The notes under the pieces: generated by a model
Seen by the model: the letters and a program-made list of their open reading frames with translations, nothing else
Database searches by the model: none
What the model was told of the DNA's origin: nothing
Part shown: piece after piece, positions 10,240-60,927 of the stretch
How positions within the stretch are numbered: the first letter of the stretch is position 1
Layout of the letters: each line of letters starts with the position of its first letter
NCBI RefSeq assembly: GCF_937951745.1
Contig: NZ_CALFBQ010000048.1
Location: forward strand, 1-64,000
Reading direction: 5' to 3'
Source: an uncultured Chloroflexus sp.
GTDB taxonomy: Bacteria > Chloroflexota > Chloroflexia > Chloroflexales > Chloroflexaceae
DNA length: 64,000 nucleotides
Program-made: the position numbers and the translations under genes

Positions 10240-10268
10240 TTGCGCGCCCTTCCGGCCTGTGCTATACT
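10240..10268 (+). promoter_or_regulatory. orphaned promoter of the glyS T-box leader
   Basis: TTGCGC at 10240-10245, a 17-base spacer and TATACT at 10263-10268 with an extended TG two bases upstream. Transcription would start near 10275, just before the 5' strand of T-box Stem I. The IS607 insertion now separates it from the rest of the leader. Confidence 0.6.
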
Positions 10269-10274
10269 CGTTTG

Positions 10275-10301
10275 GTGGTGGCGATGAACCGGAGGAGGAA
10301 G
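10275..10301 (+). promoter_or_regulatory. 5' fragment of glycine T-box Stem I (interrupted)
   Basis: GGCGATGAACCGG at 10280-10292 holds the GAUGA K-turn strand of a T-box Stem I base. GGC pairs with GCC at 13869-13871 and CCGG with CCGG at 13862-13865, leaving GAU as the bulge and GA opposite GGA. GGAGGAAG at 10294-10301 is the 5' strand of the specifier loop up to the insertion point. The pairing partners lie 3.5 kb away, beyond the IS607 element. Confidence 0.75.
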
Positions 10302-10310
10302 ACTCTAGTC

Positions 10311-10338
10311 TTGACAATTGTGTGCGATAGTGTATACC
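10311..10338 (+). promoter_or_regulatory. candidate promoter of IS607 tnpA
   Basis: TTGACA at 10311-10316, a 16-base spacer and TATACC at 10333-10338, inside the left end of the element. An inverted repeat AAGACT/AGTCTT spans 10299-10312 just upstream. It would drive tnpA and possibly the whole element. Confidence 0.55.
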
Positions 10339-10356
10339 AGTCTCATGGAAAGCACC

Positions 10357-11070
10357 ATGAGCACTGGTAAGGCGGCGAAGCTGCTCGGCGTGTCTGTCAA
10401 GACATTGCAGCGTTGGGAACGCGAAGGGCGCTTGATACCGGTGGCACAAACGGACCGCAATCGCCGTCTGTACACCGAAACACAGTTGCGTGAGTTCATT
10501 GGGTTGCGGCAGGCGGTAGCCGAGCCAACACGGATAGTAGCTTCCTGCCGTGTATCACGTGCGGCGCAGAAACCGGACTTGGCAAATCAGCGTAGGGTGC
10601 TGGAAGAGTTTGTGGTAGCGAAGGGGTTGGCGAACGTCGAGTTCGTCGAGGAAGAAGGCGGTGGGCTGAACTTCAAGCGCAAAAAGTTTTTGGCGCTGAT
10701 GGGCGAAATTGGTCGGCGGGAAATCAAGACCCTGATCCTTGCCCACCGTGACCGGCGTACTCGCTTCGGTTTCGAGTGGTTTGAGCACGACGCACCATCC
10801 CACGGATGCGAGGTGCTGGTGCTCAATCAAGAGCGTCTCTCGCCAGAACAGGAAGTGGTGCAAGACCTAATGACCATCGTGCATTGCTTTTCGTCCAAGC
10901 TTTACGGATTGCGGAACTACCGGAAAACCCTGAACGAAGCGCTGAAACAGGATACAGCTCATGACGTATCGAATCGAATCGGACTTCCCGCTGGAAAGCG
11001 ATTTGCTTCCCAAAGAGGCATTCACCCTACCTGCGCGAGAGGCCCCGGCGTTCAGGCCGGGGAGGGATAG
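10357..11070 (+). CDS. tnpA: IS607-family serine recombinase (TnpA)
   Basis: An N-terminal MerR-like helix-turn-helix (STGKAAKLLGVSVKTLQRW) is followed by a small serine-recombinase domain. The catalytic serine is Ser67 in SCRVS; conserved arginines are in AHRDRRTRFGF, and the C-terminal helix carries FSSKLYGLRNYRK. This enzyme catalyses excision and insertion at a 2-bp core. The start could also be the ATG at 10345. The last 15 codons (after 11025) and the stop come from the nested IS200/IS605 insertion; without it the frame would run to 12348. The catalytic part is complete, so activity may be retained. Confidence 0.88.
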   Translation: MSTGKAAKLLGVSVKTLQRWEREGRLIPVAQTDRNRRLYTETQLREFIGLRQAVAEPTRIVASCRVSRAAQKPDLANQRRVLEEFVVAKGLANVEFVEEEGGGLNFKRKKFLALMGEIGRREIKTLILAHRDRRTRFGFEWFEHDAPSHGCEVLVLNQERLSPEQEVVQDLMTIVHCFSSKLYGLRNYRKTLNEALKQDTAHDVSNRIGLPAGKRFASQRGIHPTCARGPGVQAGEG

Positions 11071-12303
11071 CGCAGACCGCATCACGGTTGGTTGCATCGT
11101 AATATAGAAGTTTTCGGTCTATAATACGAATCATGAAGCTTACGCTGCAAACGCAACTGCTGCACCCGCCTGATCAGGTTTGCGTACTTGAGGCGACCAC
11201 GCGCGCCTTCAACGCGGCGGCGGACTGGCTGGCAGGAGAAGCGTTTGCCCGAAAGACAGCCAACAAGATTGCGTTGCAAAAGCTGTTTTATCGAACCTTG
11301 CGCGCACGCTTCTCGCTCTCCGCACAGATGGCGGTGCGTTGCATTGCGCAGGTATGTGAGGCGTACAAGCGTGACAAGACCAAACGCCCCTGTTTCCGTC
11401 CGTTCGCGGCCATTCCCTACGACCAACGGCTGATGAGTTTCAAGGGGCTGGATCGTGTGTCGCTGCTGACGATTTCCGGCAGGATACTGGTGCCGTTCAT
11501 CATGGGCAGCTACCAGTCCGAGCGATTTACCGCCGCCAAGGGACAGTTTGATCTCGTTCGCCGTAAAGACGGCAAATGGTTCCTGCTCGTGACTGTCGAT
11601 TTGCCGGACGGCACCAAGATACCGGCAACCGACTTTATCGGCGTAGACTTGGGTGTAGCAAACATCGCCACGGACAGCGATGGAAGCCGATACTCCGGCG
11701 CCAGTGTCGAAGCCTGTCGCATTCGCAACCATGATCTGCGCCGCAGTCTCCAGAAGGCAGCAGTCGGACGAAAACGGCGTAGATTGCGTCCCAAGAATAT
11801 ACGCAGAAAGCTCAAATCCATTGCGGGACGCGAAGCGCGATTCCGCAAGGATATAAACCATGTGATTTCCAAATCGCTCGTTGCCAAGGCCAAAGGCACC
11901 GGACGTGGCATCGCTCTTGAAGACCTCAAGGGGATCCGCGACCGGACACGGTTTCGCAAGGCACAGCGGGCGAAGATGGGCGGTTGGGCCTTCCATCAGC
12001 TTCGCAGCTTCATTGAGTACAAGGCGAAGCGTGAAGGTGTCGAACTTGTTCTTGTCGATCCGAAAAACACCAGCCGGGAATGCCCGAGCTGCGGGCATAT
12101 CGACAAGGCCAACCGCCCATCGCAAGCAGAGTTCCGCTGCGTGGCTTGTGGACATACAGGCCACGCGGATGTGAACGCGGCCCGGAACATCCGTTCTAGG
12201 GCTAGGGCGCTCGTCAACGCGCCTAAAGTCTCGGAACGGCACTTTGGTCTCCAAGCTGCCTAGTGCAGGGACAAGCTCCGCCCTTCAGGGCGGGGTGGTT
12301 GAC
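11026..12303 (+). mobile_element. nested IS1341-type (IS200/IS605) element, tnpB only
   Basis: The left flank is TTCAC (11021-11025), the likely target and TAM site, and the element ends in TTGAC (12299-12303). Subterminal hairpins are present at both ends: CCCCGGC/GCCGGGG at 11043-11062 and CCGCCC/GGGCGG at 12278-12293, both with TTCA in the loop. Only a tnpB is present, no Y1 transposase, so it is non-autonomous for transposition. Removing exactly these 1278 bases restores an open reading frame across the junction, which supports both boundaries. There is no target duplication, as expected for the family. Confidence 0.85.
11133..12263 (+). CDS. tnpB: TnpB RNA-guided nuclease (IS200/IS605 type)
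   Basis: 376 residues. RuvC-like catalytic acids are present: Asp172 in GVDLGVAN, Glu263 in ALEDLKG and Asp346 in HADVNAA. The zinc ribbon has CPSC (317-320) and CVAC (336-339). All key residues are intact and there is no frameshift, so it is probably a functional omega-RNA-guided DNA nuclease. It lies within the nested element, and its omega-RNA would come from the 3' end of the gene plus the right end, with the guide read from flanking DNA at 12304 onward. Confidence 0.9.
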   Translation: MKLTLQTQLLHPPDQVCVLEATTRAFNAAADWLAGEAFARKTANKIALQKLFYRTLRARFSLSAQMAVRCIAQVCEAYKRDKTKRPCFRPFAAIPYDQRLMSFKGLDRVSLLTISGRILVPFIMGSYQSERFTAAKGQFDLVRRKDGKWFLLVTVDLPDGTKIPATDFIGVDLGVANIATDSDGSRYSGASVEACRIRNHDLRRSLQKAAVGRKRRRLRPKNIRRKLKSIAGREARFRKDINHVISKSLVAKAKGTGRGIALEDLKGIRDRTRFRKAQRAKMGGWAFHQLRSFIEYKAKREGVELVLVDPKNTSRECPSCGHIDKANRPSQAEFRCVACGHTGHADVNAARNIRSRARALVNAPKVSERHFGLQAA

Positions 12304-12445
12304 GCGACACTACGAGAGTATATCTTCTGCCGTGGCAGCAGCCATTGAGGGCGTCGAAGACCCAGAAGATGCAGAATTCAGGGTCGTATGTGTCGAGACT
12401 GGCGCGATAGTCTGGCGTTCCACTGTCGAGAAATACGAGTAAGCC

Positions 12446-13786
12446 ATGCACCTGACTCACAAGATCGCCCTTTGCCCAACACCAGAACAGGTGGACTACT
12501 TCAAGCGCGCCTGCGGTACGGCAAGGCGCGTCTGGAACTGGGCGCTGGATGAGTGGAACAAGCAATACGCGGCGGGCCGTAAGCCGAATGCGATGGCCCT
12601 GAAAGAGCAGTTCAACGCCATCAAATACAGCGATCCGCGGTGGCTCGATGAGAACGGTCGGCCTTGGCTGCGTGACATTCACCGGGATGCCCATGCGCAG
12701 CCATTGGCTAATCTGGCAAAAGCATGGGATCGGTTCTTCGCCGACATCAAGGCTGGAAAGCCGGCGCACGCCCCACAGTTCAAGAAGAAGGGTCGTTGCC
12801 GCGACAGTTTCTACGTGGCGAACGACAAGTTCAAGCTCGATGGCAAGACCATCCGCCTGCCCAAGATCGGCGACGTATTGATGACCGAAACGTTGCGCTT
12901 TTCGGGAAGAATCATGGGTGCGACGGTGTCGCGCACGGCAGAGCGTTGGTATGTCGCAATCCATGTCGGTGTGCCTGATGCGCAGTTTTACCGTAAAAGG
13001 ACGGCGCATGGCACCGTCGGCGTTGATCTGGGCATCAAGTCGGCAGCTACGCTCTCCAGCGGTGAGGCTATCCCAGCTCCGAAGCCTCTCACATCAGCCT
13101 TGCGCAGGTTACGTATTCGCAGCAGGCGTTTGAGCCGTAAGGTCGAAGCGGCGAAGATAAATGCTGGTTTTGTGCCTGGGCAGCGACTGCCAAAAGGCAC
13201 GCGGCTAGCGCTTTCGAACCATGGCAGGAAGTCCTCTGCGACATTGGCAAGACTACATGCTCGTATTGCCAATATCCGAGCGGACTTTGTCCACAAGCTC
13301 ACGACTCGACTTTGCCGCGAAAACCAAGCGGTGGGGATCGAGGATTTGCACGTGAAGGGGATGCTGGCGAACGACAAACTCGCCCGCGCCATCAGTGATG
13401 TGGGCTTTGGCCTGTTCCGCTCGCAGATCGAATACAAGGCCAAACGCTACGGAACCCGGTTGATCGTCGCCGATCGCTGGTGTCCGAGCAGCCGCCTGTG
13501 CTCGGTCTGCGGTTATAAAATTGATGCGCTGGCCTTGAGCAACCGTGATTGGGACTGCCCGCAATGCGGTGCCCACCATGATCGCGACCTCAATGCCGCG
13601 CTGAATCTTCAACGGCTGGCAACCGCAACTGCCCTACCCGTGGCGAGTCCGTCCGGCAACGGCGGCACTGTGGGAGAGGGGGTCTCTCCGACAGTCGGGA
13701 AAGTAACGCCTGCCAGATACGAATGCGGTCTGCAAGACGCTTCGGGGCAGGAAAAGAATCGTGCGCAGGTTTGCGCACTTTTTTGA
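12446..13786 (+). CDS. tnpB: TnpB RNA-guided nuclease (IS607 type)
   Basis: 446 residues, clearly different from the other TnpB. RuvC acids are Asp194 (GVDLGIKSA), Glu299 (GIEDLHVKG) and Asp381 (DRDLNAAL). The zinc ribbon is CSVC (352-355) and CPQC (371-374). It has an N-terminal OrfB helix-turn-helix-like region and a Gly/Ser-rich C-terminal tail that runs into the right-end hairpin, where the coding sequence and the omega-RNA probably overlap. It starts 3 bases after the stop of the broken small ORF. No inactivating changes are seen. Confidence 0.9.
   Translation: MHLTHKIALCPTPEQVDYFKRACGTARRVWNWALDEWNKQYAAGRKPNAMALKEQFNAIKYSDPRWLDENGRPWLRDIHRDAHAQPLANLAKAWDRFFADIKAGKPAHAPQFKKKGRCRDSFYVANDKFKLDGKTIRLPKIGDVLMTETLRFSGRIMGATVSRTAERWYVAIHVGVPDAQFYRKRTAHGTVGVDLGIKSAATLSSGEAIPAPKPLTSALRRLRIRSRRLSRKVEAAKINAGFVPGQRLPKGTRLALSNHGRKSSATLARLHARIANIRADFVHKLTTRLCRENQAVGIEDLHVKGMLANDKLARAISDVGFGLFRSQIEYKAKRYGTRLIVADRWCPSSRLCSVCGYKIDALALSNRDWDCPQCGAHHDRDLNAALNLQRLATATALPVASPSGNGGTVGEGVSPTVGKVTPARYECGLQDASGQEKNRAQVCALF
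13761..13785 (+). terminator. right-end hairpin of the IS607 element with T-run
   Basis: GTGCGCA (13761-13767), loop GGTT, TGCGCAC (13772-13778), followed by TTTTTT. It overlaps the last codons of tnpB. It resembles a Rho-independent terminator and also the right-end hairpin of TnpB elements. If it stops transcription, read-through from the element into glyS would be reduced. Confidence 0.55.
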
Positions 13787-13792
13787 TAGCAG

Positions 13793-13972
13793 TACGTCGC
13801 GATGAGCGTCCAGCGAGCCGGGGACGGTGCGAGCCCGGCGGCTCAGAATGGCGGAACGGCGCCGGGGAGCCGTAATTGGCGTTGAGGTGAGCGGCAAGCG
13901 CCGCTAACCGGGGTGGAACCGCGCGTCAGGTGTGATGCGTCCCCGAGCGACATGTTCGCCCGGTTTTTTTTA
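13793..13972 (+). promoter_or_regulatory. 3' part of glycine T-box riboswitch upstream of glyS
   Basis: Begins TACGTCG, the strand that pairs with TGGCG (13849-13853) above the specifier loop. The upper stem GAGCCGGGGACGGTGCGAG-CCCGGC-GGCTC carries the T-loop-type distal motifs (AGCGA and GGTGCGAG) that dock on the tRNA elbow. The specifier is GGC at 13858-13860. T-box GGGGTGGAACCGCG lies at 13910-13923; its TGGA can pair with tRNA-Gly UCCA. A terminator CCGaGCGA/TCGCcCGG followed by T8 ends at about 13972. The 5' strand of Stem I is missing, displaced to 10280-10301 by the IS607 element. Confidence 0.85.
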
Positions 13973-13995: not shown

Positions 13996-15615
13996 GTGCC
14001 GGCTACATCACTCGATCAGATTGTGGCGCTGGCCAAGCGTCGCGGCTTTATCTTCCCCAGCAGCGAGATTTATGGCGGGTTGCAGGGGGTGTATGATTAC
14101 GGCCCGCTCGGGGTTGAATTGAAAAATAATATCATCGCCGATTGGTGGCGCACCAACGTCTATGAGCGCGATGATATGGAGGGTCTGGATGCCGCGATCT
14201 TGATGAACCGGTTGGTCTGGAAGTATTCTGGTCACGAAGAGACCTTCAACGATCCGCTAGTTGATTGCCGTGTGTGTAAGATGCGCTGGCGCGCCGACCA
14301 TATCGACGGCGTTTGTCCCAATTGCGGTTCGCGTGATCTCACCGAGCCGCGCCCGTTCAACATGATGTTCCGCACCCAGATCGGGCCGGTGGCCGATAGC
14401 GGCTCGTTCGCGTATCTGCGCCCGGAAACCGCGCAGGGCATTTTTGTGAATTTTGCTAACGTGCTCACCACCACAGCCCGCAAACTGCCGTTTGGGATTG
14501 CTCAAGTTGGCAAGGCGTTTCGCAATGAGATCAACCCGCGCAACTTCCTCTTCCGCGTGCGCGAGTTCGAGCAGATGGAGATTGAGTATTTCGTGATGCC
14601 CGGCACCGACGAAGCTTGGCATCAGCGTTGGCTCGAAGCGCGGTTGGCGTGGTGGGAGCAGATCGGCATTCCGCGCCGTCGGATCACGATCTACGATGTG
14701 CCCGCCGATGAGCTGGCTCACTACTCGAAACGCACCTTCGACCTGATGTACGACTATCCCAATATCGGTGTGCAAGAGATTGAGGGGATTGCCAATCGCA
14801 CCGATTACGATCTCGGCTCGCACAGCAAGGATCAAGATCAGCTTAACCTGACCGCGCGCGTCAATCGCAACGAGGATAGCATTGCCCGCCTGACCTACTT
14901 CGATCAGGCTAGTGGCCGGCACGTGGTGCCGTATGTGATCGAGCCGTCGGCAGGGGTGGGGCGTGCTATGCTGGCGGTGTTGTGTGAAGGGTATGCCGAA
15001 GAGTTGACCAAAGCCTTGCCGGATGACAAGCTAGTGATGGTTGGCGAGGCGCTGCAATCGTTCCTCAAGTCGGTTGGTCGCAACGAGAAGATTAGCGCCG
15101 AGTCACGTGATGCAATTCTGGCCCGTGGCGAAGAACTCAGCCAAGCGTTGGCCGAGCGGTTGCCCGAAGTCGAGCAGTTGCTGGCGATGCCGGGAGCGGA
15201 TCAGATTGAGGTGGGCAAGAAACTGCGCGGGCAAGCCCAACCGCTGATCGACGAGCATTACCGCACTGTCTTGCGGCTCAAGCCGCGGCTGGCGCCAATC
15301 AAAGCGGCAGTCTTCCCGCTCAAGCGCAACCACGACCAACTGGTCGCCACCGCCAAAGAGGTGCGCCGCCGGTTGCAGCTTGGCGGCGAGATGCGCACCG
15401 TCTACGACGACACCGGCGCGATTGGCAAACTCTACCGCCGGCAAGACGAGATTGGCACGCCTTTCTGCATCACAGTCGATTTCGACACCATCGGGCAGGG
15501 CAAAGACCCGGCCTTGGCCGACACAGTCACGGTGCGCGATCGCGATACCATGACTCAAGAGCGGGTGCCGATCGCCGAACTCGAGGCATATCTCCGCGAC
15601 AAGCTTCGCGTATAG
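13996..15615 (+). CDS. glyS: glycyl-tRNA synthetase, single-chain (alpha2) type
   Basis: 539 residues, class II. It charges tRNA-Gly with glycine. The N-terminus [25 protein letters not shown] is the eukaryote/archaea/Thermus-like GlyRS signature, distinct from the alpha2beta2 bacterial form. Later motifs are [19 protein letters not shown] (motif 2) and [14 protein letters not shown] (motif 3), then an anticodon-binding C-terminus. The start is the GTG at 13996 with GGAGGAA about 6 bases upstream; the ORF-track start at 13975 precedes the ribosome site. It is an essential gene here, yet its T-box leader is split, so its expression must be altered. Confidence 0.93.
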
Positions 15616-60852: not shown

Positions 60853-60927
60853 CGCGGCGTGGAGCAGTGGCAGCTCGTCGGGCTCATAACCCGAAGGTCG
60901 CAGGTTCGAATCCTGCCGCCGCTACCA
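60853..60927 (+). tRNA. initiator tRNA-fMet (CAT anticodon)
   Basis: A 75-base cloverleaf with encoded CCA. Acceptor CGCGGCG pairs with CGCCGC, leaving C1 opposite T72 unpaired, an initiator hallmark. The D stem is GAGC/GCTC with a short loop. The anticodon arm TCGGG-CTCATAA-CCCGA has CAT and the three G:C pairs typical of initiators. The T arm is GCAGG-TTCGAAT-CCTGC. It has its own promoter and terminator. Confidence 0.92.

Follow-up and report, generated by a model that had tools for sequence, protein, structure and literature searches.

The window analysed here, a 64,000-nucleotide stretch of DNA from an uncultured Chloroflexus sp., is part of an 85-kb contig in a draft genome of 4.25 Mb (94 contigs, 99% complete), and was compared with seven further genomes of the genus (G001-G007). 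It contains glyS, encoding the only glycyl-tRNA synthetase (GlyRS) found in the genome. The enzyme is of the dimeric type, glyQ is absent, and no second GlyRS was found in the 99%-complete genome, which speaks against a spare GlyRS elsewhere. A GlyRS with 94% identity to it comes from an uncultured Chloroflexus, which very probably places the genome in or near that genus. The nearest relatives share the gene order xerD-like gene, glyS leader, glyS. The leader itself is a glycine T-box that lies in two parts on either side of an IS607-family element (Table 1). Its promoter is conserved in all eight genus members (TTGC and TGCTATACTCG), with the -10 element (TGCTATACT) upstream of the 5' strand of Stem I likewise conserved in the relatives; it is still in place, now 3.5 kb away from the remainder of the leader. 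Across the window, just one Rfam match exceeds the gathering score, a tRNA gene with a CAU anticodon (60853-60924).

Table 1. Features of the glyS locus, in order of position within the window.
Feature	Position	Strand	Basis or remark
Native glyS promoter (TTGCGC, 17 nt, TATACT, TG in front)	10240..10268	+	Sequence
T-box Stem I, 5' strand (GGC-GATGA-ACCGG-AGGAG; K-turn GATGA, CCGG, specifier-loop start GGAG)	10280..10297	+	Alignment with 12 relatives, covariation
IS607-family element, 3,495 bp	10298..13792	+	AG at both junctions, no target duplication; empty sites in relatives; second copy and its empty site
Promoter-like TTGACA-N16-TATACC, left end	10311..10338	+	Sequence only; not among the consensus-scan hits
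tnpA, IS607 serine transposase	10345..11070	+	NF033518, 179 bits (cut-off 110); PF00239, PF00376
Nested IS200/IS605-type element without tnpA	11026..12303	+	Absent from the C9 copy; sole copy in genome
tnpB of nested element	11133..12263	+	Domain matches
tnpB of IS607 element	12446..13786	+	RuvC and zinc-finger motifs recognized by eye
Probable omegaRNA scaffold and right end	13600..13792	+	Conserved even in miniature copy
Right-end hairpin, then TTTTTT	13761..13784	+	Possible terminator or omegaRNA hairpin
Predicted TnpB guide TACGTCGCGATGAGCGTCCA, copied from T-box Stem I	13793..13812	+	Adjoins right end; follows the published TnpB guide rule (PMC11870625)
Glycine T-box, 3' portion	13793..13972	+	Rfam T-box, 48.5 bits, E 9.4e-9 for 13769-13947
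Specifier codon GGC (glycine)	13858..13860	+	Position in alignment with relatives
T-box sequence GGGGTGGAACCGCG	13910..13923	+	Invariant in relatives
Terminator hairpin and T run	13943..13971	+	G13946A gives an A.C mismatch within the stem
glyS, glycine--tRNA ligase	13996..15615	+	NF011484, 1183 bits; sole GlyRS gene found in genome

Comparison with the relatives shows that the glycine T-box predicted to control glyS was cut by an IS607-family insertion in the specifier loop. All seven genus relatives have a contiguous glyS T-box leader without the insertion, and G005 and G007, which are 95-96% identical to the window over the leader and the start of glyS, preserve the exact empty site. The continuous leader of G005 reads GGCGATGAACCGGAGGAG-TACGTCGCGATGAGCG, and the window matches it letter for letter except for 3,495 interposed bases: GGAGGAG ends at 10297, TACGTCG starts at 13793, and joining the two positions gives GGAGGAGTACGTCG. 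The insertion separates GGAG from UA in the specifier loop, within a conserved GGAGUA strand, and has produced no target duplication; GAGUA is invariant across the 13 aligned leaders. An earlier sequence-only reading of the locus had proposed this split of the glyS T-box within Stem I by an IS607 element, which the empty site and the transposase match (NF033518) confirm. It had also correctly recognized the 5' strand with its K-turn behind its own promoter and the 3' part from 13793 with the pairing strand, GGC specifier, T-box and terminator. The end of the 5' strand, set at 10301, proved to be 10297. Positions 10298-10301 (GAAG) belong to the element, the proposed join GGAGGAAGTACGTCG is four bases too long, and the strand given as AAGUA is actually AGUA, as in the relatives.

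The two halves were scored jointly and separately against a profile built from 12 relatives, with the window left out. The 3' half alone scored 153.7 bits and the correct join 178.7 bits, an excess of 25 bits, while the join of the sequence-only reading scored 171.7 bits and none of 20 controls in which the 5' piece was shuffled exceeded 159.6 bits. Both checks that had been set beforehand thus favor the split, the joined sequence being clearly better than the 3' half and the locus of the relatives holding the same leader uninterrupted. In the alignment of 13 leaders, 97.7% of the cells were paired over all tested T-box helices, with 13 doubly covarying pairs, versus 36-46% for control helices that had been slid along the alignment. 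Both Stem I helices interrupted by the insertion are paired in 100% of the sequences and contain two doubly covarying pairs, both in the CCGG/CCGG helix. Because these spanning helices pair and covary in the relatives, the split Stem I is real; the complementarity proposed earlier between the two halves stands, and the overall interpretation of that reading is supported.

The direct Rfam match is less informative. It covers the 3' part alone, the missing 5' part being filled with element sequence, and does not reach the gathering score of 93 bits; since the intact T-box leaders of the genus relatives also fall below that score (57-81 bits), it is a weak discriminator. What the window retains of a T-box is the T-box sequence and an antiterminator/terminator pair 5' of an aminoacyl-tRNA synthetase gene, with the terminator weakened. 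What it lacks is an uninterrupted Stem I carrying K-turn and specifier loop; the relatives have one, whereas in the window it is split at 10297/13793.

Assignment of the insert to the IS607 family, also proposed earlier, is borne out by a transposase that combines a MerR-like HTH with a serine resolvase domain and scores well above the NF033518 cut-off, by the lack of a target duplication and by a two-base core. The core is AG rather than the GG of the Helicobacter pylori element, which transposes without target duplication; GG is stated for IS607 itself (PMC6188088) and was not taken as a requirement for all members. The tnpA stop codon has been lost by a TGA to CGA change relative to the second copy described below (window 10961-11070), and the frame reads on into the nested element. 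The latter sits directly behind TTCAC within a small gene located between the IS607 tnpA and tnpB; this gene (MTYRIES..., window 10961-12443) is found in the second copy as well, apparently frameshifted there. The TnpB domains OrfB_IS605, TNB and HTH are present (PF07282, PF01385, PF12323).

A second IS607 copy in the genome (L100, 534-2757; G000:C9, here called the C9 copy) is 86-91% identical to the window copy and interrupts an apparent CHAT-type gene (PWE..LHDG motif, by inspection). The intact gene in G004 (L187) provides the empty site, CCGTGGGAG followed directly by TACCTCCAC. Four copies were readable at both ends, namely those in the window, C9 and G003 and a miniature in G004. Each of the four has AG at either junction and a left flank rich in G and A (GGAGGAG, GTGGGAG, GGAGAG and AAGGAG, respectively); the right ends of two additional copies likewise end in AG. 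The AG junctions and empty sites therefore indicate precise insertion at an AG core. In the miniature derivative (L102, G004:C1 about 3073928-3074500) the left end is fused directly to the omegaRNA and right end; tnpA and tnpB are mostly gone, and the omegaRNA region is well conserved. A search of 400 phylum genomes with the right-end pattern found six copies in four genomes, with no other T-box insertion among them as far as the flanks could be read, two copies in G171 lying near contig ends. The right ends of these two copies (L200, L201), from another family of the phylum, are nearly identical, which suggests horizontal spread of this IS607 group.

Stem I of a T-box captures tRNA, and a transcript that reaches glyS without a complete Stem I should not capture tRNA-Gly. 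Binding of tRNA to an isolated antiterminator was not detected (PMC5951919). In the Paenibacillus polymyxa serA T-box, removal of the specifier region left nearly no expression, while the same deletion together with a destroyed terminator signal gave constitutive expression (PMC8002221). Because serA lesions of the same kinds have these effects, we infer that an otherwise intact T-box without Stem I would terminate constitutively, leaving glyS locked off, and that loss of the terminator would relieve this.

The terminator of the window leader carries a candidate for such a lesion, which the earlier reading did not report. Compared with those of G005, G007 and G001, the leader differs by four derived substitutions and an added T. 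Each of the 12 other aligned leaders has G at position 13946, and G13946A converts a G-C pair to A.C within the 8-bp terminator stem; it also abolishes the outermost antiterminator pair. The predicted energy of the terminator is -8.1 kcal/mol versus -15.0 kcal/mol in the two nearest relatives (-4.75 versus -11.1 at 55 C). No other extracted glyS leader has so weak a predicted stem: the remaining 21 range from -11.7 to -23.8 kcal/mol, with some distant stems imperfectly delimited. In forced folds of the nearest relatives the terminator and antiterminator are equal (ensemble energy -29.9 each), and in the window the antiterminator is favored by 1.0 kcal/mol. Two details count against the rescue proposed next: the T run has one base more than that of the nearest relatives, and an antiterminator pair is lost along with the G-C pair of the stem. 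A stem broken by G13946A is predicted to allow enough read-through for tRNA-blind, constitutive expression of glyS, and the gene now probably runs without its sensor. The likeliest reading is a two-step change in which loss of Stem I would have been offset by weakening of the terminator, the insertion probably having occurred together with, or before, selection of the terminator-weakening change.

Transcription of glyS could possibly start from the native promoter or the promoter-like site at the left end of the element, or arise by read-through past the right-end hairpin. That hairpin, with its six T residues, may terminate upstream transcription, and no promoter was found by consensus scan between the right end and glyS.

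The insertion could also be real and G13946A a neutral passenger in a dead riboswitch, with glyS expressed by leak or from an unrecognized promoter. We regard this as unlikely, though far from negligible. With about four derived substitutions in the leader a single stem hit is not statistically striking by itself: the chance that at least one of four random substitutions falls within the 16 stem bases of a leader of ~210 bases is ~27% without selection, so that selection for G13946A is not proven by the mutation alone, and leak through T-box terminators is plausible. Against this, no change breaks the body of the terminator stem in any of the 12 relatives, and a dead yet terminating leader 5' of the only GlyRS gene should be costly.

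A second feature absent from the earlier reading is the predicted TnpB guide. About 190 bases are conserved up to the right end of the element, the miniature copy included, and together with the tnpB ORF they suggest an omegaRNA whose guide starts at 13793, inside the T-box. The GGAG motif and the first 16 guide bases match exactly in G005, G007 and G001. In the TnpB scheme the guide is taken from the flank and matches the empty site, leading to IS retention or gene drive (PMC11870625). By this mechanism the T-box-derived guide would direct TnpB to cut the intact, empty allele and thereby hold the element in place.

If instead the element comes and goes, TnpA would excise it precisely and restore the riboswitch in part of the population, the assembly showing one state of a mixed locus. 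Transposition of IS607 without target duplication (PMC6188088) and the open tnpA frame are compatible with such behavior; it is nonetheless improbable, as no empty GGAG-plus-guide target, that is, no empty glyS site, is found elsewhere in this genome assembly, TnpB would cut such a site, and the terminator change would persist after excision. Sensing might also survive if the RNA were rejoined, either by splicing out of the element, as happens in IStrons, which are IS elements containing a group I intron (PMC4227781), or by pairing of the two still complementary Stem I strands across 3.5 kb. We give this very little weight: no group I intron match was found in the region with Rfam even at E values up to 10, which sets the element apart from IStrons, the strands are separated by translated genes and a possible terminator, and pairing over 3.5 kb is unlikely as a working structure. 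An assembly artefact joining two places, conceivable in a draft of many contigs, has the slightest of chances, since the sole other IS607 tnpB-part copy found is only 91% identical, the nested element occurs once in the genome, and the two parts of the leader sit on either side of the insertion on a single contig, arranged as in relatives.

The explanation that best fits the locus as a whole, and which we consider likely, is a transposon-split T-box with a terminator-weakening rescue, constitutive glyS expression and TnpB-mediated retention. The stricter proposal of a natural two-hit conversion to constitutive glyS, in which a transposon destroys the sensor, selection favors a terminator mutation that restores expression, and a T-box-guided TnpB blocks return, is put forward tentatively, as somewhat less probable than its alternatives taken together. 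If true, it would illustrate a way for a lineage to survive the loss of an aminoacyl-tRNA synthetase riboswitch. No IS insertion in a T-box was found described in the open-access literature searched. The parts are of known kinds; their combination, with a genome-specific terminator lesion and a riboswitch-derived TnpB guide in a transposon-split T-box, is unusual.

The window leader shares with known glycine T-boxes (RF00230; glyQS/glyS type) the K-turn, the GGC specifier loop, Stem III, the UGGA T-box bulge, the antiterminator and terminator, and its site 5' of a glycyl-tRNA synthetase gene; it differs in a Stem I split by 3.5 kb of DNA and in a terminator mismatch unseen in relatives. The element resembles other IS607-family members in its tnpA, tnpB, two-base core and lack of target duplication, and differs from H. 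pylori IS607 in having an AG instead of a GG core (PMC6188088) and an IS200/IS605-type element nested inside. As in TnpB-mediated IS retention (PMC11870625), a flank-derived guide matches the empty site, whereas in this case the flanking sequence is the leader of the sole GlyRS gene found, placing a predicted guide inside conserved riboswitch sequence, and TnpB activity is predicted. The P. polymyxa serA mutants (PMC8002221) likewise lost the specifier region and the terminator. Those lesions were made by design in one leader, whereas both lesions in the window are natural and one was made by a transposon, so that the locus offers a natural counterpart to laboratory dissection of a T-box: a mobile element breaks the sensor domain and a point mutation alters the expression platform, at the only GlyRS gene found.
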